Shown piece by piece: positions 1,192-51,700 of a stretch of DNA of 64,000 bases (position 1 is its first letter; each line of letters begins with the position of its first letter). Source of the DNA: Isoetes taiwanensis. Its lineage: Eukaryota; Streptophyta; Lycopodiopsida; Isoetales; Isoetaceae. A program made the position numbers and the translations under genes. The stretch spans positions 5,990,025 through 6,054,024 of the forward strand of contig JAJEKV010000002.1 in assembly GCA_021234155.1 (NCBI GenBank), given 5' to 3'. A model generated the notes under the pieces. It saw only the letters and a program-made list of their open reading frames with translations, did no database searches and had not been told where the DNA came from.

Positions 1192-2773
1192 TGTGACGTC
1201 CCCTACTCATATACGGTGCACTCACCGTATACAAACAGGAGTTCATCCCCCATACCAGCTCCATGCTAATATAGGGCCCTCCACGTATCACTTAACCTTG
1301 AAGAGTTCCATTGGGAAGAATGAAGGGTCATTTACCCCGCCTCCCTCGGGGCCTACCTAGCTACCAAGCGTAAACATATATGTCAAGATACATACATCAA
1401 CATCATATGACCATCACGAAGATGGTCCACATATCTGCATAGATAAAGATCAAAGACATCACATAGGAAATTCTACCCGTGGCTCGGACTCAAAGGGATG
1501 ACCCGGGCTTGGGTCTCCAGAGTTCATTGCGCATGTAAAATTCATGGCAATGGATTTGGTCATCATAAGAACATGGCATTGGGTTGTCCACTCCATCCGC
1601 CCCTCATGTGCACACTTTGCATAATAGGTTGAAAAGTGTTGGGACCTCGACCAGCCTCACGGATGCGCAGCCAAGAGGGCTACTCCCGGGTTTCATCTCC
1701 CCCGCCCGATGGGGCGGTAGGGATCACTCCCTCCGGAGATCTACATGTTGACTCAAGGTGACTAGAGGGCCACCGCCCGTGTATTCGACCAACCCACCGG
1801 AAAGTGAACACCACTTCACGGTGTCGAGCCCATGCCTTACCCACACTTTTCGGTGGTAAGCCATTAGACCTAGTCACAATGATCCCCGTAGGCCTTACAC
1901 ACCGTGAGGGATCGCTCAAGAGTCGGACACACGATCTCCTTCTTAGCCGGCCTGCCCCTTCACCCACAACCGGTGTGGTTCTTGTACACAGGCCGAATCT
2001 ACAGTGTGCTAGAGAGGCTACTCTAGAAGCATCAATTACAAAGCCTTAGGGCCTCTACCCCCCTTCCCAATACAAGGAGTTCACAGAGATACATCATCCA
2101 TATACATCACGTAAGAACTAAAGAACTAGATCTAATCTATATCATAGAGTTAGGGTTCTTTAGTTAGTGTCCGGATCTAGAGATCTAGATAGTCAAGTAT
2201 GGGCAATTTAATAGGCTAAACCTACTGATTCTATGACTAGAAGACGGTTTAAGCTATTAAATGACCAAATACCCCGATCCTTGGGTGGCTCCTCCCGACT
2301 GAAGTTCAACCATCCCGGCGAGCTGATCAATCCGTGGAAACTAATGGTGCGATTCGGCTTGGGCAAGCCAAATGCTGGAGGCGCTTTTTGGCTCCTGGGG
2401 CAGCCAAAACTGAGCTCTAAAACCCTATGGACGAAAACTAGCAAGTTAGGGTTTTCCTACCCTAAGTAGACATGGGGTTTAGGGCTAGGGTTTCCAATTA
2501 CCCATTTTAGCATGTGGGATAATTGGAAAGGCCCCACTGGCCTTTAATGGCTAGGTGGCAAAATGTGCCTACATGGAAAGGTGTGTGTGTATTACATTAA
2601 TGTGCACATGTGCACATTAATAACATATGAACATACCTAGCAAGTTGCCCCTAGGGCTACTTACCTGGCTATCCATCGGCCGCATTACGCCGGTCGAGTG
2701 GCGGTACGCTGCGATTTAGCAAGCATGCAGATATACGCTTCCGGGACCGTGATATCGCGGCCGGAACGTCACA
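1192..2773 (-). mobile_element. 5' LTR of a minus-strand LTR retrotransposon
   Basis: The LTR edge next to the primer site begins TGTGACGTCCCC on the plus strand at 1192. At 2762-2773 the sequence reads GGAACGTCACA, an imperfect inverted copy of that terminus, so the LTR is taken as 1192-2773 (about 1.58 kb, TG...CA ends). A 9-bp-stem hairpin (1210-1218 with 1223-1231) sits near the inner end. A perfect 26-bp palindrome lies at 2596-2621. The other LTR is outside the window, so the target-site duplication (expected to match about 2774-2778) cannot be checked. Short ORFs inside (1680-1967, 2208-2469) look fortuitous. Confidence 0.75.
2596..2621. repeat. Perfect 26-bp palindrome inside LTR
   Basis: ATTAATGTGCACA followed directly by its reverse complement, preceded by a (GT)5 run at 2581-2590. 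It lies about 150 bp from the outer (5') end of the LTR, in what would be the U3 region. It may be a dimeric protein-binding site or a chance product of the GT-rich tract. Confidence 0.8.
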
Positions 2774-5105
2774 ACTACTACATGATAACAAATAACTTAC
2801 AACATAAGTTGAGATATATCCATTTACCTTATTTCCTGGATTGTCCATGCTCCTTAACAATTAGAGGGCAAAAACAACTTGAAACTGAACCAAATTTCTT
2901 TAAAACACACAAAACAGTTTTATGTATGGAAATGCTAATTCATCTATGAATCCTGCCAAAATGCTAGGCCAGATTCAGTCGTCATTGAGGATCACTGAGC
3001 TATACTTTCAAAAGCATTGTTGGACATAAAAGTACAAACCTTCAGTTTTCATTGTAGATCTATTGGAAATGTTAGTTTGCGGAGAATAATTAGATGCATT
3101 AAACTCCCATGCTCAATGTACTGCCCACAATAAAGTTCAACCATCTTGTTTAATCTCAGATTCACATAAGCCCCGAAGTTGTATGCACTATCTCTGCTTA
3201 ACAAATCTTGGTGTTTTTCAAATGAGCAAGAATGTATTGCCTTCTAATGAGACAACCTTCATACTTCTGGTGTCCTTTCAACAATCTATTGCAAAATTCT
3301 GTGTAAGACGACATTTTATAAAGATCTTAATTGCATGGCATCTAGGTCATAACATTCTGTGAAATTCTCTTATTTATGCTATGTTTATCAGTTTACATTT
3401 TCCTTTTTTAGATTGGGCACTAGCAACATATATGTAAGATATACTGAATTCAATACTCGGCAACTTTGGTTTTTCTACAACAATGGGATTAAGTTCTAAA
3501 TAGACTTAAACCACATACAACACATCTGATCGCAACAAATTAAATTCACCTTAAGCAAAAGACCCTAAACTTGTTCAATTTCTGAATCCCTAGATTGAAA
3601 CAGATCTTTCACCGCCTTTTGCAAATCTTCCAAACAATTTTTTAGCTTGAACAGACTCATTTTATATGCTGCTGCAAGAATAGGCAAGACATTAGGCACC
3701 TAAAAAGATCCAATAAAGGTGGATCCTTAAGTATTTTATTCTACCAAGAAATGGGTCTGTTTGTGAAAGCTCAATCTTTTGTGTGCCAAGCAGAAATGGG
3801 TCTTATAAACAGATGTAATGCTGATGGGTAAATTCGTATATTTATGGTCTGCAAAATAAGTCAGTTTTGAGATTATATGCTCTTTAACCTCCATAATGTT
3901 ACTTCAACAGACTTAGTTAAGAACTAAACTTTTTGCCACTGGCTTGAACAATAGCTGGCTTCAACGGAGGAAATGAATCGCCAAAATGATAGAGAAATAA
4001 ATCGTAGAGCAACGCGAACAAAGACAAAAAGCGGGTAAAGTCATTAAGCAAAGGCCAGAAATCTTACATGAAATTTTGTGTCTTGTTATCGGCCCCAATA
4101 AGCAAAGCATTTAGGGTGAATATTAGCTCAATTCTTTTTACAGCTATAACTCAAATAATACGGAAATGAAAATAAATGCAATGATTAATTTGTGACAAAG
4201 TTAAACCTCAAAAAAATTGCTGAAATTGTAGTTGGCCCCACCTTACTATCGATTTTCTTTGCAGATGTAGAACTGGCCTATAATTATAGAGACAGATCGC
4301 ACCTAGAGTGGAAAAGACGGTCGGATTATGCATGAGAAGAACCCTAGAAGGGCAAAAAGTCCACTGTGTCTGCAGAAATTAAGGAGTTCACCTTCACCAA
4401 AAGCTTTGCTCCAGATAGGTAGGTATGCAAATATCCTAGAAGATAGAAAGAATGGCCACATCTGGGCACCAAGGCAATGAAGAGAATAATGATATAGCCG
4501 CTTAACTACTCTCTGTAAGCTGGAAGACTCATTTAGCCATTATTCGATATTTTCAAAAAAAGAAAGAATCAAATGCAAGAATCTAAATCTGAACCTATAC
4601 TATGTTTTGTCTTTGCGCCAAGTTATCAAGCTTCCACTTTAGCTGATGGTCAATCGTCATAGCTAGTGCTCAAAGAGCAGAAAAACCTGCAAGTAAAAAT
4701 GTTATTCTGGCGAGTAAAAGAGAGGTATGTAGTATTGAATCAAATAGAATCCTAAGGATCTTATCTGCCATCGCCAGCAAAGCTAAGGGGAAAGCTTATG
4801 AACATGCGGTGTTCTAGGCACAATTCCCAACACACTCTAAGAAAGATAAAAGCAAATCATCATCCCGGAATAACAGACCATTGATGAAGTCAACCGCACA
4901 TTGAAGGTCTCCTATAGAAGGGGCAAATAGGTAATCCCTTGTAGGAATTATTACAAGATGTCTAATGCCTTGATTCTGTATTCCAACTTGTGTCAGCTAT
5001 ATGTAGAATGCTCAAATGTGATACGCCACAAGAGTACCTTATACAGTGATATCTGCACCAAAGTTTCATAGGACTCATTCAAAGTTACTACAGCTTTTAC
5101 GCCAA
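2774..5105. other. No gene seen (AT-rich intergenic)
   Basis: About 2.3 kb with no ORF I can connect to a family on either strand. Base composition is AT-rich and uniform. No clear terminal repeats, A-tails or RNA genes are visible. Confidence 0.6.
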
Positions 5106-6069
5106 GACTTTTAAGTAACCGGCTCAGGTGACGCAGTTCGCTGGAGGCGAGCCGCCGGTGGCTCACCTTGGAGGATTGGTATTGGGATGGTCGGCTAGCT
5201 TGTGGGAGTTCTTCGAGCTCTCTTTAGCTGAAGGACAAAGGGACTCGCTATTTGGGAACAAGTGGCGGGAGTATTCCGCTACACATACCTATAGTCCCTC
5301 GGGGTGATGTGGTGGTGCAGGTTTGGAAGGTTCATCCAGATGTTGTATCTTCTTGTTTTGTGCGGTCTTGTTACCGGGTGTTGGCTATTCATGACACTCG
5401 CCCCTTCGGGCAAGTGGTCTGCAGCTTCGGGTTCTCGGTGGCGCGGTTTGGACGTGGACATGGAGCTCACTTCCCCCACCCGGTTGGTGCTTCGTGGCGG
5501 TGGTGCACCCAGACGGGGTGAATGTCCTTGTGAGTCGGTTTAGGCCGGAGTGAGCCCTCTTGCCCTTGTTGTGGCCTTCATCGTGAGACTGCGGAGCATT
5601 GTCCGGTTTTATGCCCTCACTTGCAAAAGCCCTCGATTGGGTCGTGGCCTGCTTTGGTGAGATTGAATAGCCAACAATTGCCGCTTCATGTATATCCCGG
5701 TGCTTGGCAGACAATGAGCAAGCCTTGCATCCGTAAAGTGGGCTTGGTTGGTGTGGTTGATTTGGAAGCTGGCGGTTGTGGATCTTCGTGGGGATTGACT
5801 GCGACCTCTCCGATTCCTCGACTCGGGTACAAGCTATTTCAAAGCTTTTTGGTGTTCCCGGATTAGTAGAGCGGAAGTTTTCCATTTACGGGACTTCTTG
5901 GGTGTGGTAGATGGTGATGGCCGGTTGTACAAAGAAGAGAGTTGCGCTTGTTGTGGAGTGTCGAGGTATCACCTTTGTCTCTTTGGGGCGCTTCTCCTTC
6001 CTCCTCACTTGCTTTGTAACATTACCATTCTTTTAATATATTGCTGACACGGTTCTTCAAAAAAAAAAA
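5106..6069 (+). mobile_element. 3' fragment of a plant LINE
   Basis: Plus-strand coding traces in several frames match the C-terminal part of plant LINE ORF2. At about 5545-5640 one frame reads a Cys-x2-Cys / Glu-Thr-x-Glu-His / Cys pattern (CPCCGLHRETAEHC), which is the zf-RVT zinc-binding region found after the reverse transcriptase domain. The fragment ends in an 11-base A run at 6059-6069, the expected LINE 3' tail. Several frameshifts break it. It is 5'-truncated; the left edge near 5106 is approximate. A similar zf-RVT region is carried by the better preserved LINE at 58414-60692. Confidence 0.7.
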
Positions 6070-6732: not shown

Positions 6733-8514
6733 TCAAATCAAAGCCCCTTCAAAATCACAATGCTCAACATCCATGGGGCCTATTGTACTCAAATCCTCAG
6801 CCAGATCTTCAAGACCCGATCTCCCAAGAAGGTCAGTAAAACAATGATAGTGATCCAGCATTGGTGTGAGTCCATAACATGCAAATATAGAAAGAAAAAT
6901 AATAGCACCGGCAAGATCCTGCATCACTAGATGCACAAATGATAGCTACAAATGTGAACTCATTTGGATTCATGCCTTCAGTGCATGTGTTGGAATAAAT
7001 GGATAGCATCCATACAATGTCTATGCTTTCAAAGATATGCAAATATCAAAGAAGTCCGTGATAAAACACTTAGTTGATGCACTCTATCAAAACAAATGAC
7101 AAAGTACTCTAAACTTCCGTTCTTTGCTATACATCTTAATTACGGATGTCCGACTATATCATCATGCCCCACACCACCTTTGATAGCATTTGCATGGACT
7201 AGCTTGCCTTCACTTCGGCATCCTAGATTGGCACAAGCTTCAAGGGCACTTAGAAAGGTAGCCTTGTCTGGTCTTAGACATTCAAGCTCCATTTGCTTAA
7301 ATAGGTGGATAGCCTCATTAGCATAATTGTACTTTTCATATAAGGTAATCACTGTAGTCCAACAAACAACATCTGGCTCCAATACCTATATCTGAAAAAC
7401 TCCCTTTTCCATACATATTGATGAGGGCTGTCCCAACCAAAGCATCTGATGCCAAATGGCTTCTACAAATACGAGCATGGAGTAATTTACCTTTTGCAAG
7501 GCCTCCTGGGCCAGGCCAGCACAAGCTTCCAGCATGCCAGTCAACACAACTATATCTGGTTTCTTCCCTTCCATTTGGATTTGGCGGAAGAGTTGGAGTG
7601 CATTATCATCACATCCATGCTGAGCATATATACCTAACATTGCCCCCCAAGAAATCATGTCACGCCTTTGTATCTTGGACAAAACTCTCTTTAATAAAGT
7701 GAAGGCGAGATCATAATCAACAAATACAAAAAATTTCAAGCACTCAAGCCACTAGGTCCCATAATAGGTATTAAAGAGACAGATGCTCAAGGACACCTAG
7801 TTTGAGAACTAGAATAAAGTTAACAGCAAGTGCTGCCAAATCAAAAGAGCCTAAATTGCCCTTGGAGTACAAATTACCTCTGATTACATGCAAAAATCCT
7901 TGATGTACAATTACATGATGACAAAAATTCTTCAAGGCAGGGATGCTAAATGCACCAAACCACAATCTCTGTTCGGATCTGCTACTTAGCAAATCGCAAC
8001 AAATTAGTTGGTAATAAATTGCAAGCAATCTATGCGTTCAAACTTCCCATAAGCATTGATCGAGACAGTTTCAACTATTGCCTCAGCTTCTTGCAATAAT
8101 GTGCACATGAATTGCCTTAATCTCAGCTAAACAAGAACATGCACTAAGAATTGTGCTAAAGGTGTACTTATCTGGTTCCAACTGCATTTGTCGAAATAAC
8201 TTGAAGTTCACCTTGTTCATTCCCTTCTTGACAATATGCTAAAATCATGGATGTCCAGGAAACAACATTCTTCTGAGGCATGTTCTCAAAGGTTGTGACA
8301 GCATCTTTCAAAGACTTGCATTTTGCATACATATTGACAATTGCATTACATACAGCCAAATCATCCAACAAACTAGATTGAGAATAGATGCCTCGTCCTT
8401 TTAGTTGGTCTTGGGACGGAGTAATGATTAATAAGGGGCGGTTAGGGGCATTAAGTATTTCATTGTCGAGGTAAAATTCTTGGATTTATGAAAGACGAAC
8501 CATTACTTCATAAA

Positions 8515-8546
<32 letters not shown>

Positions 8547-8770
8547 TGAAAGTTGGGGGGCTCAAGACGATCGAGATACCGTCCTAGTCTCAACCATAAA
8601 TGATCTTTAATTAGGGATGGGCGGATGTTACCGATGACTCGCCCGACACCTCATGAGAAATCAAAGTTTTTGGGTTCCAGGGGAGTATGGTCGAAATTTT
8701 GAAACTTAAAGGAATTGGCGGAAGGGCACCACTAGGAGTGAAGCCTGCGGCTTAATTTGACTCAACACGG

Positions 8771-8804
<34 letters not shown>

Positions 8805-9384
8805 GCAGATTGAGAGCTCTTTCTTGATTCTTTCTTGAATCACCCTTCCCTCCATTAAATATTCAATCGCCGTATAGGCACCTAAAATGGTTGTATATGT
8901 AAAACTATTTGGTTTAATGTCCTCAATTAGCATGCATCTAAAGGGTTGGAGGCCTTCCCTAACTTTTTCATCTTTGGATATGCCTTTTGCAATGATAATA
9001 GTCCACGAAAATATGTTTCTTTCTAGTAATATATCAAAAGCATGTCTTGCATCCTCTAAGGCTCCACACTTGCCATAGAACTCTAAGATTGCTTAAGAAC
9101 ACATTCCTACAATGTTTACTTCCCAAAAAATTCTTATGGACACGCCTATCTTGATTTAGAGCCTTGTTGTTACAGCATTGGCGAAGCAGAGCCATATATA
9201 GACTCAGATTATTTCCCTCTGTTTCCATCCGCTCTATTGCTTTCTCCAATTGATCTTTGCCCCAAACTTCTTTGTCCCATCCCAATGACTCTTGCACTAT
9301 AGCTAGCCTGTTAGAACTGTTCTTTCCATCCACCGAATTATGAGTGACTGAATAATAGATTAGCATTGGGAGAGCCATAGCCAA
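6733..9384 (-). pseudogene. PPR (pentatricopeptide repeat) protein pseudogene, PLS type
   Basis: Minus-strand blocks spell successive PPR motifs. From 9384 a short N-terminus leads to a block with RRVH and RNVFLSN. At about 9085-8840 come GKCGALEDARHAFD and PNSFTYTTILGAY. At about 8400-8060 come CNAIVNMYAKCKSL and NVVSWTSMI. At 7660-7500 comes DMISWGAMLGIYAQHG. At 7475-7410 comes DALVGTALINMYGKG. At 7382-7140 comes PDVVCWTTVI then LRPDKATFLSALEACANLG. At 7000-6740 comes NEFTFVAI then LDHYHCFTDLLGRSG, the usual lead-in to the E domain. Intact members are organelle-targeted RNA-binding proteins, often RNA-editing factors. This copy has many frameshifts, a poorly matching stretch at 7771-8028, an 18S rRNA insert at 8402-8831 and no visible E/DYW C-terminus, so it is not functional. 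Confidence 0.88.
8402..8831 (+). rRNA. Partial nuclear 18S rRNA (pseudogene fragment) inside PPR pseudogene
   Basis: The plus strand carries the conserved core of cytosolic small-subunit rRNA: TTCTTGGATTTATGAAAGAC (about 8480), GCATTTGCCAAGGATGTTTT, GATACCGTCCTAGTCTCAAC (about 8575), GAGAAATCAAAGTTTTTGGG, CTGCGGCTTAATTTGACTCA and GGTCCAGACATAGTAAGGAT. This corresponds to roughly 430 nt of the middle of the about 1.8-kb molecule. Many substitutions and small deletions show that it is decayed. The PPR reading continues on both sides, so the piece was inserted into the gene. At the right edge the 18S and PPR sequences share about 13 bp (8819-8831). There is no A-tail. Confidence 0.92.
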
Positions 9385-18400: not shown

Positions 18401-19300
18401 GGATATACCATCGCAAGCTTATCACGTAGCCATATTAAGCAATCGCTCCATTGATGCGAGAAAATGGTGAGAAACAACGCTACCAGAGAGATTTTATAGG
18501 AGCGATATGAGCACCATACCATAGCATAGCGGCATTCCGATGGCCTCATGCTTTCCGGAGAAAAACTTTGTATCCGACCCGGTTAGTAGAGGCATGGCCG
18601 TAAAGCTGATGCTCCATACTTTCGAAGAAGAAAAAACTTTGTATCGACCAGTTAAGTAGAGCGCCATGCAAAGCCGAAACCAAAAATTAGGGTCTCCGGT
18701 ATTTGTTACAAAGAATTTCATTAAGCTGGCTCTATGATTCTTCTTCTTCGCCGTGAGCTTTGGATCAACAGATTTACCTACCGTTGATTACAGCTTTCTG
18801 TGGTAGAGGCATGCGAGCACCGAATAAGGTACCTGCGGAGGAAGCGATTAACCTGCTTTAATTAGAACACCTTGTCGCAAGCGGTGGTGTCGATTACCGA
18901 ATCATTTTGTGATGGCCAGGTTGGGTCCGGATGGCAAGAGCTGGGTCTTTTTTTGTTAACTCACGGAGAATCACAGAACTTTGTGATAAACCTAGGCGTG
19001 GGTGATAAGCCTAGGCTACGTGGGATTGATATCGAGAGGAGGCGTGGTTGGGTTGGGGTGAGGCGACTGCTATGGAGTTAAAGTCAATCCCTTGCTTCGC
19101 TGTTATGGTGAGATAATATTTCGCCCTCGAGAGACTTCCAGCGTTTGCTCGACCGTCTCAAGGGATTAACCCCCTCTCCAATAATAGATCAAGAGAAAAT
19201 AAAGGATGGATAAATCGTTTAAAAACTTTACCCAGGTACATGGTAATTTTTTCATTATCATTATCTCATACGGTGGGAAAAGTATAAGAAGGTTAATCGC
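12420..19300. other. Long stretch without recognisable genes
   Basis: No ORF longer than about 100 codons and none with a recognisable family signature on either strand. Small items only: a B-box-like GGTTCGAGCCC at 14854-14864, a direct repeat at 16637-16733, and a diverged duplication of about 50 bp at 18556-18605 and 18625-18674. The base composition shifts several times, suggesting old nested insertions. Confidence 0.55.
16637..16733 (+). repeat. Exact 41-bp direct repeat
   Basis: 41 bp at 16637-16677 (starting ATACATGTTTGTGGG) recurs identically at 16693-16733, with a 15-bp spacer. The lack of divergence suggests a recent slippage or repair event. Confidence 0.85.
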
Positions 19301-19318
19301 CTTTTCGAGCTATATCAC

Positions 19319-19690
19319 ATGGCGCATTTCTTCAAAGTAGCATTTAAACTCCATTATTTACCTGCTGGGTTTGAGCTAGGGCAGATGAACAAGTTCCAAA
19401 ATGTGGTTCAAGAAGATAAAGTAGAAGTGTACGCCAATGCATTCAGTGGATATCAGAACTATTACCCACTACTCGCGACAAAGGGCACAATTAGCTCTAA
19501 CAAGTTTATTCGTGGGCTCAAGCCGGAGTTGACTTTGCTAGTCGGAGGAGTAACTTATCGCAGCTTAGAAGAAACTATCCGAGTCTTCAAGTTTAAAGAG
19601 CAAGTCCAGAATCGGATTAATAAAAGTCGGGAGGAAACAAACCAACCTTCCGCGATCTCGTCAAGCAATGACAGCTTCAGCTATTATGTG
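19319..19690 (+). pseudogene. Ty3/gypsy-type gag remnant
   Basis: The open frame from 19319 carries the typical retrotransposon gag core: a spaced series with VEVYANAFSGYQNYYPLL followed by NKFIRGLKPELTLLV and an E-E-T-x-R-x-F-x-F-K-E helix, matching the V-x-x-Y-x-x-x-F ... K-F-x-x-G-L-x-P-E pattern of gypsy gag. After about 19690 the sequence loses similarity, and no zinc knuckle is seen in frame. The upstream part is missing or decayed. It has the same orientation as the methyltransferase-like gene at 20.7 kb and the gypsy pol remnant at 24.9 kb. Confidence 0.6.
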
Positions 19691-20727
19691 AAGTTGTTTG
19701 CCTTTTCGCACAAGATAATGCTTACAAGGAACGCAGTCGCGATCTCTTACAGAATTATTTGTGGCATTAATGCGACAGATCGCAGTCGCGATTTTGTCGA
19801 GAAGTTGGGGTTTTGGCTTCGAACACTGCAAGGTAGCAATATATAGCATTTAGTGAATCGGATTACTACTATGGCAAAGCAACCTCCTAGAATCTACGCA
19901 GTTGTAAAAACAGAATCAGAACAAGTCATAAGTAGCTCACATTGCAAACATACTCTTAAAGGCAAATAACAACCCAGATTGGAAGGAAGATGTTATTTCA
20001 AAGAGAATCACGTTTGTTGCCATAGTCGCCATGAAGAAAGAACAAAAACAAAGAGAAATGGAGCTTGCCTTCCTTGCTATGATCAAATAAACGAGCGTGT
20101 CAAGTTTTTTGAAGCACGACAAGCCCGATCGGCTGCACCCTGGAGATCCACAAGAGTGATCGGGTCCAAGAAGCGGCCAAACCTCCAAAACCTTCAGGTG
20201 CTATGTATGAAATGGAAGCACCTTTCTTCTTGCTGCAAGAATTGCAATGCAACCTAGTCCTCATTTTTTGAATTTGAATTCTGTTCTTGCTCGATCAGTA
20301 ATTGGGCGTGTAACGTGGCGGGTCAATTCTGCCAGGTGCCTTAGGGTACCAGAATTCGCCTCGTATTAATCTTGCTGGCTGCCAGACCCCGAGTTCAAAA
20401 AATGTCACTTTCCGAATACACTTTAATGAGTCTATTTCTGAAAGTGTCATTTTCATGGTACATTTTTCAAATTTCTTGTGTCCTTCATTTTGATGGCGGG
20501 ATTCAAAATTTTCCTCAAAAGGACACTATTTTACCTGGATCCCGCCAACCATGAATATCGCCGCATGCCATGAATACGCCTTCCACCATAAATACACCGT
20601 CCGCCATAAATACACCATAATTACGCCACCATTCATAAATACACCACAATAGTTATATCTATTTCCGTCTATAGATTTCCGCCTCCGCCTAAGCGATACC
20701 TCCGCCTCTGCCTAGGATACTCAACAG

Positions 20728-23299
20728 TTGCAGTTTGTGGAGTACATGCTCAGATGGCAGAATTATGATCCTTCTCTAATGATTGCGAGCAAGCTAAATA
20801 AGCCACCTAGTGCAAAGAATGTTCCTACGAGCGCTAAGGGTTACGGATGGAGCCTTCCATCATACGACTCCCTTTCTCTCGCTGGGATCAAAGGGAATCG
20901 TGATCTGCAAGTGCAGGAATGACTTGGCAAATGATAAGAAGCCACCTTCTTGTGCAATTAAGGCCAAGAAGGATAACAAGATGCCCCAGGTCATGGATAC
21001 TAATTGACTGAGAGCCGTAGCTAAGAAAAGGCAAGTGGTTCCCTTGGCCACTCTCGGTGAGCCATCTCATGCCAAGGAACAAACATAGGTTCAAAGTGGT
21101 AATCCTATGTGCTCTGTAGTAGAGAATCCCACAGAACCAAGACTGATTATGCCTCCATCTTAGACAACTGATAAGCCAAAAGATACCTCTGCTCCAAAGA
21201 TTAAAAAAATTAAGATTAACTTGAGGAAGTTAAATATAGACCCATCTAAAAAACAATCCACTTCCACTACACCTACATCTTCTGATATCCCCACAGCTTC
21301 ATCATTTGCTCTCACCTATCCTAGTGCAGTACGCCTGCCTCCTGAACTAAAATTTAATCCGGCAACCATGACATTGACGGTGAAGGAGCTAAAAGATGAA
21401 AAGCAATTCATATTCATGCAATAAGAGCCTTGGTCCAAGTTTATGCAGGTTGTTTCTAAGTGGACGGGCAGGAAACTTGTGGATGATCATGGTGAATTGC
21501 CTGATAGGCCCACCAAAGATTTCTTCAGCAAAATCTTTTTGCGCTACTTACGTGGTATGTCAAATGAGGAAGTTTCACAGCTTATGGATGAAATTTTAGA
21601 AGGAAAGACATACTTGAAAGTGCAGTCAGGATATGCTGGTCATTATGACCGTAAACAAAGGGCAATCGACATCAGGACACTCACTCTTATGCGCCGAGAA
21701 ACATTGTCCTATGCTAATAGCATTATGGACCATTGCTATGCCAGTTTTGAGGAGGTTGCAAGCAAGTTTCCACGAGCAGCGGCTCCTTGACATTGCAGGA
21801 TTTGATTTTGAGTATATCAAAGCTAACTAAAACAAGGACCATGTGCAGGGGAATCTTCCAGATGTCTTTCTTGAATAAATCAGGTCTATTCTTAAGCCAG
21901 AAGAAGCAAACAAGCTGAAAGAAAAGAAAAATACCATCTACAGGGTGACTAAACACGAAATACCTGTAAAAACATCAGAGCCGCAAAACGCGACAATGGT
22001 GTTCATTGACATGAGGAGGTATACTACAGTATGGGATGTAAAGAAATATCTGGACCTCTTCAACAGGATTGCTATCATGACTACTGCCAAGGTCTATCAC
22101 ATTCTCATGTTTTTGAGATCTGATCAACTATCTAATTGCTAATATAGCCAAGGTCAGGTGCAAGGTAGTTCGCATGTATCCATTGCTTATGAAGAGCAGG
22201 GCTGGGTAAGCAAGAAGATGGTCAAAGAGTTCCAATACCACATCACGCATGTGACCATTAATAGAAGTGAGGCTTGCATGATTCCCTTGCAGCCTAGTTT
22301 GGAACTCAGATTGACACAGGTGAACAATGCCCCGAAAAGCACTCCCATTCCGAAACACGAGATTACAGGCAATAAAGAGCAGGATGAGAAATTGAAGAAA
22401 AAAAACATGATGTATTTCACAGGCAAGCCTAAGTTTTCTTGGGCGAACATGGATGATGACTTTATTCTGAAAAGTCAAGCCAAGACATCTTACATTTATC
22501 ACATAGTTAACGAACTAGTTCCCATTGACGGGTCTGTTCTTGATTTTTTCTCAGCGGGTACAGCCTCTAGGGTGGCTTTGATCCAGGGAAAACGGAGTGT
22601 GTCATTCGAAGATGACGCTAAGGTATGTCATTTCCCGGTATCATTTTTTGAAACCTTGGAGAAGATGCCAGGCCAAGCCCCCACGCGGAGGAAGAAAATA
22701 ATGTAAAGGATGACCAAGTAAATACGGATCAGCCCGACGTAAATATTACTCAGCATACAGATTTGACTAATTTGGATGACATGTTGGATAAATTAGATGT
22801 CAAAGGCTATGAAGAGAGGCTGGCAGAAGCTAGGGCCCTCATAGAAGGAGCTGAAAAGAAATGCGAAGAGCTTGATCCAAAGTTCGAGAAGTTAGAATTA
22901 TTAAACCAGCAGCTTGATACAGCAATGCCCATGCTCACAGGAAAATCAGTCGAGAAGCGCACTTGCTCGACGTTTGAATATATAGGATCTGATCAAGCAC
23001 ATATTGAGGATGAGGCAAAGGACAGTAACCCGAAACGGTTAAAGAAGAATGGCAGTCCTGAATTTAGCAAGTTGCTACAGCAGGAATTATTAGGAGGTAC
23101 AGACAGCATGGAGACCGAAATGTCATCGGGTTCTGAACATGTCAGAAAATTAGCTGAGGCAATGGAAGTGGACATGCCTATTGTTACTGGCTATACAGAA
23201 ATGGAAATGTCACAAACTATAGCAGCAGGCCAGACATATATTACAAGAATATCAAAGCAGCTTGGTATTGTTCCAGGTTCTATCCAGGAGACACAGTGA
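20728..23299 (+). pseudogene. Decayed gene with DNA N6/N4-methyltransferase-like domain
   Basis: A single coding path runs through four segments: 20728-20922; about 20900-21790 with in-frame stops at 21005, 21086, 21161 and 21422; about 21780-22706 with stops at 21828, 21876 and 22140; and 22763-23299. The N-terminal part is Lys/Pro/Ser-rich linker. The middle (about 21443-21790) is a helical region of unknown type. At about 22000 comes VFIDMRRYTTVWD, placed like the DPPY catalytic motif IV followed by W-D. At about 22500-22610 comes DGSVLDFFSAGTASRVAL then GKR and FEDD, which fits SAM-binding motif I of class-beta methyltransferases, where IV precedes I. The last 178 codons contain a coiled coil rich in Glu/Lys/Leu. 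If the reading is right, DPPY is altered to D-M-R-x-Y. I do not recognise the family by name. The domain call is from motif pattern only. Confidence 0.5.
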
Positions 23300-24183
23300 A
23301 ATCACCGTGGCGATTGTTCTCACCTATTTTCATAATTTGATATCTAATTTACCAATGGCCTAATTAACACATGTACTTAATTGCCAATGTAAACGATGGG
23401 AATGTAATATATTTTCCAAATTTTCCTACTATCGTGTCTCTTCTGTTTTATCACAATCTTATCTCAATTTAATATGTCTTGTGCTTCCATAAATCGCTAT
23501 GGCGATCTGTTCGAGCAATTCAAATCATATTTTAGAGGTTGAATTGAATATGGAATCTCGCGTTAGACATTTTCAGGCGGTGACAGGCCGTCACTTGTCT
23601 GAGCGCCTCCTCTTGACGGCAGGCGTGGCCTTTGACTGCGTGGTCTGCTTGGTCTTCTGCGGGGCTTTTGACGACTGACCTGTGCCTGGCTGTGGATCCT
23701 TGGCCTTGACTTGGTCCGTCGTATGCATGAATAGTCATGTACCAGAACGTACAGGACTAACACTTATAAAGCCCGCTTTCAGTAGGTCCTTTAGATGAGC
23801 TTTAAGTTCTAGCAAATTGCGCTTCGCGAGTCTATATGATGGCTTTATCATTGGTTTGATGTGGGGGACAAGCTTTTATCTCACATGCAATGAGGAATCT
23901 TCTATGGAAATGTAATGTTCCTTTAATTAGCCCAACCTAACCAACTGGCCGAAATATCTGAATATTTATGGAAAATCCATCCCACCCTGGTGATATCAAG
24001 AAGCGCCACACCAATATCTCCCATGGGTCCGTTAAAATATCTCCCACTAGAATTATGCTCGTCCTCGAACATCACAAGACCATAGACCACTCCATCCTAT
24101 GGTTTACAAGACCAAGCCACGACAATATTGTCCAATGGTATCCAAGTCATACATACCCCCGTGAAGACTCAAACTCGAGCTCT

Positions 24184-24939: not shown

Positions 24940-26400
24940 CACAAACATTCTAAATGGGTAAGCCCCATTGTTATCGCCATCAAGCACAATGGTAATATTC
25001 GAGTCTATGTTGATTACGAAAAATTCAACTAAGCCATGGGCGTAGATCAGTTTCCCCGACCCTTCACATATGAAGTTTTGGAAGATGTTGCAAGCCATGC
25101 GATGCATTCCCTTATAAGTGGTTTTTCTGGAGTAGATACGATCAGATTTCAATCAAATCTGAGGATCAAGTAAGAATAACTTCTAGCACTCCATGGAGCA
25201 TCTTTGCCTACAAAATGGTAGCTTTTGAACTTTCAAATTCATTGTCAACCTTTTAAAAATAAGATTATCTCTCCAAATTGGAGCTCGCTTTGAAAAATGT
25301 GATTAATACGCATTAATCTCAACCTAGAGAGATGCATCTTTTAAGTCACATTTTGAAGTCGTTCTTGGCCATGTGGCCAGCCATCATGACATCGCCACGA
25401 TCCCTGCAAAAATAAGTTGTATTCTCAAAGGCAAGAGACCCACCAATATTAAAGAAACTTGTTTTATCATCAGCAAAGTCAACTACTGCTCTACGTTCAC
25501 TCTAGGTTCCAATGTCATAGTAGAAACTATTCACAAGCTTATGGATGATGAAAAATCATGGGCTTGGAACCCTCAAAGCTAAAGCAGCATTCACGATCTC
25601 AAGATATTGCTCATGCAAGCGCCAATAGTTTCATAATAGAACAAGCCATTCCATGTTTATGTTGATGTTTTATGCTTTGCCATAATTGTTGTTCTTGTTG
25701 TTCTCTCATCAAGAGAATTAATCTGTTTTGCCAACCGTAAATTCAACTCTATTGAGAAAAATTATTCCACCACGACACATGCCCCATCTTCTGCATTCAA
25801 CATTTCCGACATTCTATTTTGGGCACATAAATCAAGTTCTTCGTAGATCACTAAGCTTTGTTGTATGTAAATGATCAACAAGTCCGCACGTCCACGGAGC
25901 ATATCGCTTATTGGGTACTTTTGCTTCACAAATTTACTCTAATTGAGGTCATTCATAAACCACGCAAGTCCCATACAATCCCTGATTATCTCTCATGCAT
26001 CATCGCAAATGAAAATTCTTCAGGAACATCAGATGCATTTTTAGATGTCCAACTCTTTCTATCACGACCACACCACATCACACTACGTTGGTCTCATAAT
26101 TACCAACTTTCTAGCATGGTACCTCAGGAAGACTATCTGAACTCACCCGATAAGATTTGTGCCCATCATCAACAATTTATACGAACATGGCAAGGATATT
26201 GCTGTAGGGCATGTATACAAACGTGGCAAGGATATGATCTTATGCAGATGTTTTCTTCCGCATGTTTTGATATATATCTTCCCAAAAAATATCTCATAAA
26301 ATGGATAGTAGCTACGTGAAACTAGCTCCTAGATATTATGGTCCATTTCAAATTGATGACGAAATAGGTGAGAATGCTTACCGCCTATACTTATATAAAC
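24940..26400 (+). pseudogene. Ty3/gypsy pol remnant (RT, RNase H, integrase end)
   Basis: Reverse transcriptase traces: NIRVYVDYEKFN then PRPFTYEVLEDV at about 24980-25090, and ISGFSG at about 25115. The segment that should carry the catalytic Y-x-D-D box is missing: sequence jumps near 25260-25330 to the region LNLERCIF. The RT connection follows at 25373-25582 with HKLMDDEKSWAWNPQS. RNase H C-terminus: LLYVNDQQVRTSTEHIAYW then HKPRKSHTIPDYLS at 25858-25990. Integrase C-terminal end: KLAPRYYGPFQIDDEIGENA at about 26310-26380. Stops and frameshifts are scattered throughout. Most of the integrase core is absent. No matching LTRs were identified. Confidence 0.8.
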
Positions 26401-27325
26401 AAGGTGCTGTGCACGGAGGGTTGCCCTCCATGGCTGGAGGGTAAAGTAGCTTAAATCATAGTTCAAAGTCATGTTTTGAGAATCAATTTAAATTGCTACT
26501 TCTAGACAATAGAATACTTGATACCATGACTTTATGGGAATTGGCCTGAAGAAATTTTTGATGCTCGGCATGGAAAAGTCTAAGAGCAGAAATTGGAAAT
26601 ACGTGTTTTATTAGCATTGAAATGAGAGAACTCGTTGAAGATCTCTGATCAGTTTTGTGTCACATAGACTTAATGCCTAATAACTGTCAATAGGTTGGAA
26701 GATTTGTGTATTGGTATCTGAACTCACCCGATAAGATTTGTGCCCATCATCAACAATTTATACGAACATGGCAAGGATATTGTTGTAGGGCATGTATACA
26801 AACGTGGCAAGGATATGATCTTATGCAGATGTTTTCTTCCACATGTTTTGATATATATCTTCCCAAAAAATATCTCATAAAATGGATAGTAGCTACGTGA
26901 AACTAGCTCCTAGATATTATGGTCCATTTCAAATTGATGACGAAATAGGTGAGAATGCTTACCGCCTATACTTATATAAACAAGGTGCTGTGCACGGAGG
27001 GTTGCCCTCCATGGCCGGAGGGTAAAGTGGCTTAAATCATAGTTCAAAGTCATGTTTTGAGAATCAATTTAAATTGCTACTTCTAGACAATAGAATACTT
27101 GATACTATGACTTTATGGGAATTGGCCTGAAGAAATCTTTGGTGCTCAGCATGGAAGAAGTATTGCAGAAGCATAAGGACAAGTCTAAGAGCAGAAATTG
27201 GAAATACATGTTTTGTTAGCATTGAAATGAGAGAACTCGTTGAAGATCTCTGATCAATTTTTTGTCACGGAGACTTAATGCCTAATAACTGTCAATAGGT
27301 TGGAAGATTTGCGTATTGGTATTTT
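26134..27325 (+). repeat. 581-bp tandem duplication of gypsy integrase end
   Basis: The block from 26134 to 26714 recurs from 26715 to about 27325. Identity is very high over long stretches. The second copy has an extra segment of about 30 bp near 27150-27180. Both copies include the integrase C-terminal remnant around KLAPRYYGPF and the downstream non-coding part. The duplication happened after insertion of the element and is much younger than it. Confidence 0.9.
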
Positions 27326-44200: not shown

Positions 44201-45750
44201 ATGGTTCAAAACAATTTGTCGTACTGCAGGTCATTCAGGATCTTAAATTGAGCAATGAAATCCTCCGATATAAAATCTTTTGACAGGTTGGAATACATGT
44301 GCCTTGGTGTATGAAGAGAAGCCTAATCTGACATCCAAATAACAAATGTATCCGCATGCATTTACTGTTATACTAGTGTTTTTGCTATGTTCCCTACGTG
44401 GCAACTCACCCCTTCCCCTCCCTCAACAAATCTAAGCCATGCTCAGTTAGATTAGCACTCGTTGATCATCAACAACTCTTCCCATAGTATATCCAAAAAT
44501 ATACTAGGCATATCCCTGGCCTCAAAGGGGAGAATGTGCTAGGTAAATGCTTGGGTAGAGGGGGTTGTCATGAACTTAGGATATTTGTATGGTTGTCATA
44601 GAGGTTTCTTGTGGGAGGCTGATAGCGTGGCAACATTAGGGGATTTAGCCCTGAGCAGTGTTGGCGCTAATGGTTTCCCACAGGAAACCCTAGTTCCCAT
44701 GTGGTTAGCTGACCTAAGCCACATAGGGGTTTAAAATTTTAGGGCTGTACCTGTAAGCAGTGCCACCAAAAATTTAAAAAATTTCAAGCTCAAAAATCTC
44801 CCAAAATGTTAGGAGGCATTTAAAAATCAAACCAATGGTTATTATGCTGGTGAATACTTCATGCCTGATACAGCCCAGGCTTCCGACAGAACAGAGCTTG
44901 GGGAATCGAACCCCAACAAGATACCAATGCCCTTGCCTTACCCGATTCTCGAAATACTTGAAACATTCCTCATCATGGATATTGCTAACAGCCTTGAAAG
45001 AACAATGAGTCATGGAAAATAAAAGACCTTGGCTTCTGCTGCAGTGAATCCATCTTTTCATTTTGCTAAATAGCATAAACAGGACTCTGTGTTGCAGAAA
45101 AATCAAGAGTCTGTGTATAGATAACAGGGAAAAAAGGTTCATGAAAGGAGATCAGAGCATTGGTTCTCACCTAGACCATCGGCTCTCTGATTGCCCCCAT
45201 CTAGCAGACCTACAGGAGCTTCGTTGCCAGTCAGGATTTCAACGCACATGCAGATTCATGACACTACAAGCTTTGATATTGTATTCTTAACGTAATAATC
45301 AAACCTTGCCAACCTTTTGCAGCCCTGCTTAAACTCTGCCAGAAAGAAAGGTTACATCTGTATCTGGAAACGACCAAGAGATTTGAGGCAAGGCGAGAAG
45401 AAACAAGGCATCTGGCGAAGGCGGCACCTGTAGACCCTGGAAATGGAAAGTATGGGGATGCATGACATCTGCTGCAGCCCACGCCATCTCTAAACCTTCT
45501 GGAAAACAAAAATACAGGTTATATTTCGAACTATTTCGAACTGGGCTATCCACTGTCAACAAAGTATGATTTTGTATACGAATACCAAAAAAAACCTTGA
45601 ACAATCTTCTTAGGTTATATTTCTACGTTTTGTTACTACACGAGCAACTCAACATTGCATTATGAATTTCAACCCGCTGGTCGAAAAATAAAATTTGACA
45701 TGAATTTCAACCCGCTGTAAAAAGAACTAGGCTTCTTCCACATCTATTTC
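41235..45750. other. Upstream region of CAP-D3, no other gene seen
   Basis: 4.5 kb with only short frames. A minisatellite lies at about 42513-42610: four diverged copies of a 21-26-bp unit around TATGGCGTCTTCAAGCTC. A box-B-like GGTTCGATTCC is present on the minus strand at 44902-44912 without a full tRNA around it. The last few hundred bases presumably include the CAP-D3 promoter and 5' UTR. Confidence 0.5.
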
Positions 45751-45762
45751 AAAACTCCCGCC
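45751..45762 (+). promoter_or_regulatory. Possible E2F site before CAP-D3
   Basis: AAAACTCCCGCC lies 35-46 bp before the start codon. It resembles the E2F consensus TTTSSCGC with one change. E2F control would suit a chromosome-condensation gene, but the match is weak and may fall within the 5' UTR. Confidence 0.25.
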
Positions 45763-45796
45763 TCTGGCAAACGCCATTCCTTTCTTCTATTCGGAC

Positions 45797-48700
45797 ATGG
45801 AAGACGAAGAACAGCAGGATATGGCCTCTCTTCTGGAATCGACTTCTCTGCTCTCATATTCTGGAGCAGATACGGCTCCCCAACACCTCCTTTCCAAGCT
45901 TCAGGAAGCATTTCTCTCGGAAAGACATGGCGGAGTTAAGATCCCTTGGGAAGAACTAGCCCAAAGAAGAATACAATTAGGGGACATCGTCAATGGCTTG
46001 TCCAGCATTATGGAACAGGGGATGGGCTCTGGCGTAACAGCAGGTAGAGTGTATCTCGCATTATTACTAGCTCAGGATTCGCCCATCTACAGCCTTTTTA
46101 GCCCCCTTGCATTTCAAACCCTTTTTCGTTGTATTAGATGTTCATGCAAGCCCATTGTAAAGCCTTCCAACGATGAGGCAGGGCCTTCTAATTATCAGGG
46201 AAAAAAACTAAAAAAAAAAGGGAAAAGAGCAAGGGACTTATACCAAGAACGTGAACATGATGCCAATATGGAAATTGAGGACGAATCTGTCTGTCGTGCT
46301 TCTTTCAAAGACATTGTTGCCCTGATCAAGGAGTTGGCCATGGTAATCAAGGTTTTGTCTTTTAAGGACCACCAGGAAAGCTTAAAAGGGTTAGTGGAAC
46401 TTTTGATTGAGTTACCACAATTGTTCTTGGAATTTCAAGGGCACGAGGACTTAGATGATACCGCATTTCGGGGTGCAAAATCCAGGAGAGGCTGTTCCAA
46501 TAATGCACCATCACTTTCTCAATCTGTTGTTCCCATCTTGTTCAGCATGTTCAGAACACTTTTAAAACCTAATCATGGTGATTCTCAGTCAACTGCAATT
46601 ATGATTTTGAAGCTTTTTACACCAAGCATCCTTCTCACTCATGGGACCGCAAGCCCTCAGCACAAGTACCAGATTCGAACAGCTTGCCTAAACTTTGTTA
46701 TCAATGATATGTTGAAAGGTGAAGATAACCATGCGATTCGGATGGCAGTATTGGCTTTGTCTAGGTACATGTGTTTGAAGGCGCCTGAGAAAAGTGATGG
46801 GCGCACACATGCAGTGGAGGCATTGTTAGAGTTTGTGAGACATTTTAATGCAAACGAGTTATCTTTGTTCAGTAAGTTTGTTGCTAAACTAGCGCGAGGG
46901 AAACCAAAACATAGATTACTTGCAGTAGATATTGCTCTTGTTTTTCTAGAAAACTTGCCCGATCCACTTGGGCTGCACAGAGATGTACACGAAGATGAGC
47001 AGAGTCGTTGCATGAAAGACAATGCGTACCCACGTCACGAAGAAGCTGAATGTGTTGATCCCATTGATACAGAGGATAAAATGGACGAAGCAGAGCCATC
47101 TAAGGCTATGAACATACCAGAAAATCTTTGGTGGGGTATATCATGTTTAGAGACTCTTCTGCAGCGTTGCTCAGACAAGATTCCTGCAATTAGAGCTCGA
47201 GCCCTAAGTAATCTTGCACAGGCCATTGATTTTTTATCAAAAGAAATCAGGCCCCGCATCTATCTGCAACAGTTGCTTGGTGCGGAATGCTCATCAATGC
47301 CTCCAAGGGAACAGCGTGGCGCCCCAGAAATGTTGTCCACACCATTTCAAGGCATTCCAGTTATGGGGGTTGAGACCCCTTCCACAGGTAGTGGTAACAC
47401 TCCAACTCTGCTCAGCCCAGGTGCCCACCAAGGTAATTTAGGTTCACTGCTACGCAAAAGATGCCAGGATGATAAAGCAGCTGTGCGTAAGGCAGCACTT
47501 ACATTGATAACAAAATCTGCAATATTAATGGGAAGATCACCAGATGAAGAGAGTTTGCAGGCAATGGGTGTGGCTTGTTCGGATGCCATGATCAGCATTA
47601 GAAAGGCTGCCCTTGTTGCATTATCAGAGGTAATTTAATATTTGATGTAAATAATGATAAGCTATTTAGCTGATGAAACTTATATCTGATCTCAGGTCAC
47701 TAAAAGATTTTCAAGAGATAATGCTGTTCTCACAGAATGGTTGCAGTCAGCTCTTCCCCTTATACTTGATAATGAGACAAGCATACGGGAAGAAGTTTTG
47801 GGGTTCTTTCAGGAAATTGTGCTAGATCCGATCGTTGCAATATCTTCTCGCCAAATCTCTAATACCGACATAAAGCTGTTTTTACTACAGAAATCTGAAG
47901 AGAATGTGATATCTCCAGCTGTGCTAAATTTTCTCAAAGGTATGTCAGATGTGAACGTGGCCTCAGTTGTGAAACGCATTTGTGCATGTCTAGGCAAAAA
48001 GAAGGCTTTGAGAGCCACCATAGCTTTAGCATTGCAAAGCTTAGTGACTGCTTCAGCAGACATTTTAAAGAAGAGATCATATGAATTGAGCGAAGTTGAA
48101 ATTGTTGTTCAGGGTGCATGGCTCCTTCTTTCTGAAATTTCTGAGTATGTCCCAAAGGCCATTGGTTGGTCATTTCTTAGGAGCCATTGGCAACTTCTTG
48201 ACAAAAGGAAGTCACGGAGGGCAAACAACAATGAACACACTCCTGTACCGTTTAGTTCTTGTTCAAAACATGAGTACAATGAGTCTGTTGCTTGGGCTTC
48301 TAGTCGTGTGTATTTGTTACAGACCATATCAAATGTAGCTGTTGAACTTCCACCAGATACAGCTGCTGACCTTGCAGACGAATTGCTGAAACACGTTGAA
48401 GCATTTGACATGCATCCAGCAGAGGTAAAAGAAAGCAGTCTGCCTTTATTATTATCTTTAAAGGTTAATTATGAAGCAGTTTGCATGGTCAAAGTGACAT
48501 TTACACCCTTGAGAGTTTATGTTGACAGTGTGCTGAAAGTTGCCCTTTCTTCTGCAGGTCGGTGCGCATGTAACTGCACTTAATACTTTATGTAGACGAA
48601 AAGCTGCCACTTTGGAAGAAGCTGAAGAACTTGTCCATGTGTGGGTGAAGCGTTTGGTTGACAAAGCTGAAGAAATTATTGAGTTATATCTTCATAACAT

Positions 48701-51700
48701 CCAAGAGGCACAGGATACTTCATTCCTCACTCCAAAGGCGAGCAGCAAGAAAAGATCAGGAAAAAGAGCAATGGAGGTTGAAGATGCGTCTTCCCAAATT
48801 GTGGCCGCCATTTTTACAGTTGGTGCAATAGTGCTGGTTTGCCCTTCTGCAAAATTGGGCCGGATAATCGATTTTTTACAGCAAATGGTGTCCCCAAGGA
48901 ATGGGTCAATAACAAAGCCACTAGAATCAGCAGTATATGCACAGACATGGGTTACCCTTGGTAAGCTGTGCCTTGCCAAGGACAAGTTAGCAAAGCGCTT
49001 CATTCCACTCTTCATTCAGGTAATGCTGCTAACACTTACGAATTTGTTTCTCTTCAATTTTATTTATTATGTGTTGAATTAGCTTCCTACATCACTGGCC
49101 CTTGAATTTGTCTGAAGAGCCTGCTTATATGTCCTGCAGGAATTAGAGAGTACAGAATCAGCTGCTGTACGAAACAATATCATGGTTGCCATGACTGATT
49201 ACTGTATCCGTTATACAGCCTTAATTGATGGGTATACATCTCTCCAGATCACCTCTCTTTTTGTTGTCCTATTTTTCTTGTTTCTCTTCTTTAATATCTT
49301 TACATGAAAGTATATGACCTGCATGGATGAGCTGTCTAGAGAAATGAAATGAAAGGTGTATTTACATCCACATTTGCATCCAGATCCTTGTATCTTTATG
49401 AGCCCCTTGTTCCTCTTTCAAATACTATCTTCTCTTTGATATGCAAAGTGTCTGCGTATCATCCTTATGCCATTGGAACAGCCTTAAAAGTGAGTCAACC
49501 TGTATTCCATACTTATATCACATAGGCTGAGCAGTGCAGAAGCGCATGTTTGTCTGCCATCTGCACTCACTTTGCATAATCATAGCTCCCTAGGTATACA
49601 TGGAAAGGGAGGGAAGGAGGGTTCCCCATTGGTTTGCATATGCTTGGATCACCTTGTGATTTCTTGTACATAGCTCCACTTCTTTGTATACCAATTTATC
49701 ACCCCTTGCATGTTCCTGGTCTCAGTTACTAATCTTTGTCTGTGTGTGAAATTGGTATTTGACTTCTAAGTCGTTGCACATGAGATTTGTGCCTTCAAGT
49801 ATGAAGAGCTCCTTTGAGTCCCTTCAGGTTATTTTTGAAGCAGCTTTACTTCAACTCTCGTATTTTATAGTCAAGCTTCTCAACTTTAGGCCGGTGCTTA
49901 TAGAGTTGAAGTTATTTCTGCATGCAACATTTATTTCAACCTTATATTTTGTTGCTTTAGATTATCTGTGTCACTAAACTTTCACTTTTTACATTGATAC
50001 TTATATTCTGTAAAATTTCTCATGCAAATGCAATTTTGTTTTAGCTTAAGGAACTGACGGAGTCAATCCTTCAGAAATATGATAAACTAATTTGAATAAT
50101 GGAGGAAACATCCTTTACATTAAATCATTTAGAACTCTGAAGTAACATATTGCACTGGAAGTGTCCCATGACCGAACTAGACTTTGAGGGCATATTAATG
50201 TTTGATATTTATATGCTAGGTCTTGTTCAAAGTTTAAACTATGTGTGTACCTTATGATCATGAATGCTGATTGATAATCTTCAGGTACATTCCAAAATTA
50301 ACGAAGTCTTTACGTGATAAGTGCGAAATTGTAAGGAGGCAAGCATTTATACTACTTGCGAGGTTATTACAGGTGATTCCAGCCTATTAGACGGGACTTA
50401 TTTTTTCAAATATTAATATACGTTAATGAAACACTCATATCATGTTCCATGAACCTACTAGACATGAAAGAAGCAATAACAAATAACCACACTGCAGAGG
50501 GACTATGTCAAATGGAGAGGAATACTGTTCCATCGGTTCCTTCTTGCACTAGTGGATGATTCAACAAAAATAAGCCAAATGGCAAGTTTTTTGTTCGGGA
50601 CCATACTTAAGAGTGAGAATTGTCCATGAACGTGGTTTCTGATTGTTATTAAGAATGTTTTCGTTTGTTAACTTGCATTGCAATTTTCCTTTGCAGCAAA
50701 AGCTCCATTATTAGCATACAATAGTTTTGTCGAAGCTATTTTTGTGCTGAATGATTATTGTGCACATGCTGGTGGCAGCAGTGCCTTACAGGTGTCAGAA
50801 AATGAACGCCAACTATTCTCTCTAAGGTAGAGATTTGTTGAACGAGGAGTCTGTCTTTATTTGTCTTCTTACATATAAAGGATCTTGATTATAACTGGAT
50901 GTCATTCAGAGGAAGCAATTCAGACGTGGCTGAAAAAAGAATGCATATCTATAAAGCTCTTCTAAACCAGATGGCACCAGAGCATCTCTTGGCCACATCT
51001 GCAAAGTTATGTGCAGAGATTATAGCCGGAGCAGTTGATGGATTACTTGATTTAAACGATCCTCAAGGTCAATGTGTCTTAGAGGTGGTTATTTTGTTGT
51101 GTAATGGCCTATTCTTCGTTATTATCGCATGTAGCTGACCATGTTTCTAATGTTCTGCAGGATGCGCTAAAAGTTTTGGCATGCAAGGAGTTACGGCTTA
51201 ATAATGCTAGTAACCGAGGGCTCGGAGCAAGTGGGGATGGATTAGAGGAAGAGGACCCTGGCAGTACTGGTGGGGCTTTTGCTGCAGTCAAGGGAAGAGT
51301 GGTGACCCAACTTGCCAAGAGGAATCTAATTCAAAATGCAATTCCAATTTTTATAGAGCTGAAACGGTATTATATCATTCACAAATTATTTCACTATATT
51401 GCTTTTGTAAGACTTTGGCTGAGAGATGTTATGTACAGGTTGTTAGAAAGCAAAAGCAGTCCATTGCTTGGCATGCTAATGGAGTGTATCCGTGTGATGC
51501 TTAAAGACTACAAAAACGAAATAGAAGAGATTTTAGTTGCTGATAGACAACTGCAAAAGGAAATCATGTATGACATGCAAAAGCACGAAGCTAGTAAAGC
51601 CAGATCAAAAGTCGAGGCAGTGATGGAAAAGTCCAGGGATGACACTAATAAAGCCAGCAGTTCTGGAGTGCAGACAAATGAGGCTGAAAGGCCTGCAAAT

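Follow-up and report, generated by a model that had tools for sequence, protein, structure and literature searches.

The question raised by this locus is whether a broken plant gene with the look of a class-beta (N6-adenine/N4-cytosine) DNA methyltransferase gene represents such an enzyme, and whether it belongs to the host or to a mobile element. We examined it within the window (the whole stretch of Isoetes DNA analysed, 64 kb) and among its relatives in the Isoetes genome.

The decayed coding path within the window

The original prediction claimed a broken coding path with a motif-I-like stretch, and both were located. Frames read in the window show a decayed path with stops and frame changes at 20714–23299, spanning three frames (20906–~21790, 21786–~22680, and 22679–23299); position 20714 is where DNA homology to the intact copies starts. 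The stretch GSVLDFFSAGTA...FEDD occupies 22530–22616 and D-M-R-R-Y-T-T-V-W-D occupies 22008–22037; the class-beta-like motif I (22530–22616) is thereby downstream of the aspartate-bearing strand (22002–22037). Compared with the protein of the intact copy L066, the fragment starts near codon 91 and reaches the end, but without the last part of exon 2, the whole of exon 3, and the opening codons of exon 4 (Table 1). The last open frame (22652–23299) resembles the family C-terminus by eye, and both end in ..ETQ; of the C-terminal coiled coil that had been claimed, a C-terminal helical region is the part supported. An alternative reading in frame 0 at 22126–22203 was rejected, as intact copies support the frame of the original prediction there. 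The nearest measured relative of the window copy is L062, at a dS of 0.17.

The transposase piece described below was absent from the window by tblastn, and the exact 10-base core of the transposon termini was absent from its 64 kb; an unusual RNA fold was not found in the 221 bases upstream of the fragment (z 0.40). Judging from the comparison with intact copies, the locus is a dead remnant from the interior of an accessory gene carried by an abundant DNA transposon.

Table 1. Features of the decayed fragment (window coordinates).
Feature	Position	Strand	Basis or remark
Decayed internal fragment of transposon accessory (methyltransferase-like) gene	20714..23299	+	Comparison with intact copies; missing are exon 1, some 80 codons at the start of exon 2 as well as its end, introns 2 and 3, exon 3, and a few codons at the start of exon 4; has stops and frameshifts
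Exon 2 remnant, ..QLQFVEYMLRWQNYDP to PPELKFNP	20714..21361	+	20714–21067 by DNA comparison; rest by eye
Exon 4 remnant: helical region and methyltransferase-like domain	21362..22680	+	
Motif-IV-position strand FIDMRRYTTVWD	22002..22037	+	
Motif-X-like helix KSQAKTSYIYHIVNEL preceding motif I	22470..22517	+	
Motif-I-like stretch GSVLDFFSAGTASRVALIQGKRSVSFEDD	22530..22616	+	
C-terminal helical region remnant, to stop after ..ETQ	22679..23299	+	Family likeness by eye

Elsewhere in the window, Rfam detected two pieces (135 and 61 bits) of a decayed small-subunit rRNA of eukaryotic type at 8194–8874; these rRNA remnants, outside of the fragment, were its only matches over the window, and ARAGORN found no tRNA. 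There is a G+C-rich repeat array with a spacing of about 1.1 kb (2–3 copies, 61389–63939), and there are direct repeats of 300 and 146 bp, 581–605 bp apart and 95–99% identical, at 26134–27322. Long open frames at 45731–52264 resemble what may be a condensin-II D3-type host gene, and frames at 19247–19846 and 25855–26319 resemble what we take to be Ty3/gypsy gag and pol remnants.

Intact copies and the element that carries them

The Isoetes genome (1,658,258,908 bases in 1110 sequences) was searched with a 187-aa piece of the translated fragment. This gave 2615 first-look candidates, of which the best 150 were scored; all 150 matched, at 57–100% identity, and open frames of 400–718 aa were present in many of these best 150 of the 2615. 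Since only the best candidates get scored, neither this figure nor the 17,269 first-look candidates for the transposase (best 53 scored) is a copy number. The claim that only one decayed copy is visible therefore stands within the window, but fails for the genome. The 187-aa piece had no match in phages, and viral contigs held no relative of the pieces 22143–22706 and 21425–21790; the piece 22652–23299 matched five loci in viral contigs, all with the same 20-residue match.

We compared 20 copies of 9.9 kb, four upstream stretches (L085–L088, which extend L066, L071, L069, and L082, in that order), and one transposase stretch. The copies have sharp common ends within differing surroundings. The L066 element (assembled with L085) measures 10,246 bp between its target duplications, and its ends, AAGCATGATTTCATTAATT and AATTAACGAAATCATGCTT, are inverted repeats some 19 bp long that differ at one position of 19; in the L082 subfamily the repeat at the right end is weaker and less regular, and the right end of L069 was lost to another repeat. 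Target duplications of 4 bp flank all three elements in which both ends could be read, i.e., AATT (L066), AAAG (L071), and AGTT (L082). A 22-mer of the left terminus, allowing at most 1 mismatch, occurs at 778 genome places, against 0 for the reversed control. With inverted repeats and a target duplication of fixed 4-bp length both present, the element is a TIR DNA transposon, and the guess that such genes might form a mobile family was right: the intact copies lie within a DNA transposon of about 10.2 kb.

Three further observations concern the ends and flanks. The first 275 bp of the element are 94–96% identical between L071 and the other-subfamily copies L069 and L082, whereas identity over the following kilobases is 73–74%, which would fit either a recent exchange among subfamilies or a strongly constrained terminus. 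Two similar plus-strand frames, 135 and 133 aa long, lie in tandem near the left end (element positions 117–521 and 706–1104; L066 with L085). Part of a second repeat family is found at window 23576–23762, 3' of the gene fragment. In L069 this repeat adjoins the transposon (right of 6144), and in L074 it borders a gene fragment, left of 3419 and right of 5588, as though it had captured pieces of the accessory gene or flanked them more than once.

Genes of the element

An 849-aa frame on the minus strand (element positions 1908–4454) matches Pfam PF25273, DUF7869, with E=2.3e-42, and is probably the transposase; its DNCAGQNKN and GHTHDDID stretches have what we take to be a likeness to DDE transposase motifs. 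Arranged head to head with this frame, the accessory gene occupies the plus strand. The gene model for L066 has four exons (1822–1849, 2192–3344, 3409–3757, and 3823–5784) with GT-AG introns, and splicing yields a protein of 1163 aa which includes the domain and has a single stop, at its end; exon 1 and the start codon, chosen by us, are the least certain parts of this model. The long N-terminal region that had been proposed is borne out. The splice sites recur in the other copies: a GT stands directly after exon 2 at 11 of the 12 ends located and after exon 3 at 15 of 16, L058 being the exception at both sites, and AG precedes exon 4 in 10/10.

One of the best 150 gene places lies within 20 kb of 18 of the 53 best-scored transposase places, where about 0.2 would be expected, and each of these 18 pairs (the query element among them) is arranged head to head; near the remaining 35 transposase places there is none of the best 150 of the 2615 gene places. 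The exact left terminus was found 7.6–9.1 kb upstream, in the right orientation, for 6 of the 20 gene places listed, these 20 being the places on contigs covered by the first 100 of the 778 termini. The invariant head-to-head pairing and the upstream left termini argue that the gene goes with the transposase.

Likeness of the domain to class-beta methyltransferases

A class-beta HMM prepared from 26 frames (YhdJ and 25 from viral loci) was run without filtering on 906 six-frame tiles of the window. The two tiles over the fragment took the top two ranks (14.0 and 10.7 bits), a likeness beyond chance. The plain single frame scored 13.9 bits and a read-through piece 14.4 bits (the latter value obtained with the wrong frame patch at 22126–22203 included), while 2000 shuffles reached at most 10.1. 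The match comprises motif I and the helix before it, with motif IV unmatched. When the transposon domain was compared with the class-beta profile by hhalign, the result was P=2.1e-6, a probability of 89%, and a score of 48 (200 column shuffles reached at most 26), and a larger alignment again gave 89%; this profile support spans motifs X and I, about 70 columns, and not motif IV. Scored singly, 31 of 44 rows reached at least 10 bits and 13 fell below, while none of 2000 shuffles reached 10 (maximum 9.7). Motif-I likeness persists in the intact homologues.

A narrow profile built from 45 phage methylases did not match significantly (P=0.44). Searches of Pfam, NCBIfam, PHROGs, and PDB sequences gave no usable match for the pieces or the intact frames; this applies also to the three Pfam families proposed at the outset as a check (PF01555, PF05869, and PF05063; translated pieces and intact frames), and a search of PDB sequences with the family profile was empty. 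Matches to Cas9_PI (E 0.0025) and He_PIG (E 0.0061), below the Pfam cut-offs, and to phrog_33066 (E 0.01), a PHROG entry without function, were taken as chance. A profile of the middle region matched a cytochrome c555 trimer (E 5.7e-5) and cytochrome c peroxidases (E of at least 0.08) in PDB, outside of the ParB-like part considered next.

The ParB likeness of SNDHVQTLIRSF...YIISGNHSIFAAQ, preceding the domain, was seen by eye only and was rejected: there was no Pfam or NCBIfam match, hhalign against phage ParB-methylases gave P=0.097, and HMM scores were about 0 bits or less. The presence of a ParB domain in the 45-methylase profile was checked for L091 (24.1 bits, cut-off 26.3) and L094 (32.8 bits).

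Structure prediction of intact copies had also been proposed. The strand and helix order in both of two AlphaFold2 models fits that of the class-beta enzymes, but confidence in the models is low (mean pLDDT 43.3 and 45.5, pTM 0.24 and 0.38). The first was too poor for a fold search; the second was searched with Foldseek against 350,542 PDB chains, and only the ranking of its hits was used. There were 408 matches at E ≤10, none at E 0.001, the best at 0.064, and the best matches had TM-scores below 0.26 and rmsd values of 10–20 Å. The first 19 matches were all to class-beta enzymes (TTHA0409, RsrI, M1.HpyAVI, M.BceJIV, and MboIIA; RsrI is identified as such by its entry title, and the others are presumed to belong to the class); the first other protein appeared at rank 20. 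Support for the fold thus consists of profile statistics and the ranking of low-confidence fold matches. Taking the profile, row-score, and fold-ranking results together, descent of the domain from class-beta DNA methyltransferases is likely; it is supported, if not proven.

Altered active-site motifs

Class-beta enzymes are recognized by a motif IV of the form [DNS]PP[YFW] and a motif I of the form FxGxG. At the motif-IV position of the transposon proteins the D is present in 33/33 rows, followed by I or M in 29/34 and R in 32/34, and neither this P nor DPPY is found in any row. Motif I reads DFFS[AG]GT in most rows, with A after FFS in 35/44 and G in 6/44, and never FxGxG; its D is present in 44/44 rows, and the strand that follows keeps its E in 42/44. 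The class-beta order claimed for the window, motif IV before motif I, is present, but DPPY and FxGxG are in none of the intact homologues examined. Likewise, the D-x-x-x-Y-x-x-x-W-D motif kept its D (33/33) and W (34/34) in intact copies, but its Y position is F or M in 30/34.

With D[IM]R and FFS[AG]G replacing DPPY and FxGxG, two motifs that define a working class-beta enzyme are missing, even though a likeness persists; as the replacement letters are themselves conserved, a maintained but changed function is favoured. The altered motifs I and IV make a DNA-binding derivative, or one with altered chemistry, more likely than an ordinary N6-adenine/N4-cytosine methylase.

Selection on the domain

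Two alignments were prepared, A1 with 22 rows (21 copies and the window) and A2 with 44 rows (43 copies and the window); L058, L059, L060, and L064 (4 of the 47 copies examined) were dropped from A2 as being shorter than 130 aa. Pairwise dN/dS was obtained from 195 of 946 pairs, the other 751 sharing at most 120 codons or having saturated dS. The medians were 0.46 for dS below 0.1 (31 pairs), 0.26 for 0.1–0.2 (52 pairs), 0.17 for 0.2–0.4 (40 pairs), 0.15 for 0.4–0.8 (29 pairs), 0.13 for 0.8–1.5 (18 pairs), and 0.09 above 1.5 (25 pairs); the ratios become uncertain at high dS, and the highest class approaches saturation. Stop-free segments were chosen, so these ratios are biased downward. Because dN/dS falls from 0.46 in the youngest pairs to 0.09–0.17 in the older ones, the protein was selected during element multiplication; the fall with age is the pattern expected of a gene selected in active elements and decaying after insertion.

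What the accessory protein may do

We consider it probable, at roughly three chances in four, that the gene encodes a methyltransferase-derived accessory protein of the DNA transposon, one that is probably DNA-binding, with an anti-silencing or transposition-assisting role, and for which catalysis is putative. The element of about 10.2 kb carries the probable DUF7869 transposase together with a spliced gene, divergent from it, for a protein of about 1160 aa; this protein would work for the element, contacting DNA through its methyltransferase-like domain, and most likely would counter host silencing or assist transposition.

The strongest alternative is that the protein works as a class-beta-type methyltransferase despite its unusual motifs; such an enzyme would write N6-methyladenine or N4-methylcytosine on element DNA, and this reading overlaps with the accessory-protein explanation except on catalysis. 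The D of the motif-IV strand (33/33), the D of motif I (44/44), and the E of the next strand (42/44) would suit such an enzyme, as would purifying selection on the domain, but every row departs from the signature letters in both motifs, and we regard this alternative as rather unlikely. The bolder proposal, that the element marks its own copies with 6mA, 4mC, or a related modification by means of a putative class-beta-derived enzyme with a new active-site arrangement, thereby escaping or steering silencing, is a speculative one that we think unlikely; if true, self-marking and escape from silencing would help to explain the abundance of the transposon. Such marks are known in early land plants, 4mC in Marchantia sperm being tied to a DNA methyltransferase gene.

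Convergence offers another account, in which the domain is some other alpha/beta domain with a convergent likeness in its motifs, and the protein is, e.g., a DNA-binding transposase partner. The low confidence of the models, the altered motifs, profile support over about 70 columns, and the lack of a Pfam match are all compatible with this; against it, the scores exceed all shuffles in three tests, and the 19 best fold matches among 350,542 chains are class-beta enzymes, which leaves convergence improbable. That the gene is instead a host family duplicated many times, with transposons inserted nearby and the gene not their cargo, might be suggested by its being a divergent, intron-containing family, but this is disfavoured and very improbable given that, in the elements read from end to end, the inverted repeats and target duplications enclose the gene, that copies share common ends in different surroundings, and that head-to-head pairing is 18/18.

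Returning to the accessory protein of the transposon: if its domain modifies or reads DNA, the element would offer a naturally occurring, abundant, and testable example of selfish DNA that uses a bacterial-type DNA-modification fold in the nucleus of a plant, and plants could domesticate such domains from it. The altered yet conserved motifs raise a question of enzymology, i.e., whether the domain is a dead enzyme, a DNA reader, or the site of a new chemistry.

Comparison with known systems

The domain shares with class-beta methyltransferases (PF01555; RsrI, M1.HpyAVI, TTHA0409, YhdJ) a motif-IV-type strand placed before motifs X and I, and the pattern VLD-F..GT..E. It differs from them in having D[IM]R rather than DPPY and FFS[AG]G rather than FxGxG, in having no Pfam match, and in being situated within an intron-containing transposon protein of about 1160 aa. 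Phage fusions of ParB with N6_N4 methyltransferases exist, according to the available part of PMC12704722. In the phage ParB-methylases examined (from phages Javan3 and NatCom_11697) the spacer before the domain is roughly 100 aa, whereas it is about 300 aa in the transposon protein, where a ParB-like stretch precedes the domain by eye, without statistical support.

Among the matches listed in a search of open literature, no title or abstract described a class-beta (6mA/4mC-type) gene in a DNA transposon, and the word DUF7869 was absent from the open literature searched. As an element, the transposon can be likened to Sola2, for which the available part of PMC3627910 gives TIRs of 12–13 or 21 bp, AT-rich 4-bp target duplications, an 888-aa transposase, and an extra Fanzor gene. 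The likeness is one of features (short TIRs, a 4-bp target duplication, a transposase frame of about 850 aa, and an extra gene), and, as far as that source describes Sola2, the extra gene of the Isoetes element differs in being methyltransferase-like, not Fanzor. The same source, in the part available, notes that Mariner-2_PGv and Mariner1-1_OLpv, from giant-virus genomes, carry a methyltransferase gene, one of which is named as a C5-cytosine type (PMC3627910); on that description these are also DNA transposons with a DNA-methyltransferase-type gene, of another superfamily and host.

Other elements carry accessory proteins on the same epigenetic or DNA-modification theme, though of other protein classes and in other hosts, so far as the available parts of the sources describe them: C5 cytosine methyltransferases in dinoflagellate and charophyte retrotransposons (PMC5890265), TET/JBP in fungal DNA transposons (PMC12730594), and VANC of VANDAL elements, a silencing-related accessory protein (PMC10398659). 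Set against these as so described, the Isoetes transposon has a class-beta-like domain with altered motifs. It is a new variant on the published theme of transposons that carry epigenetic-type genes (5mC methyltransferases, TET/JBP dioxygenases, and anti-silencing proteins), and transposons may here have recruited yet another DNA-modification-type protein.
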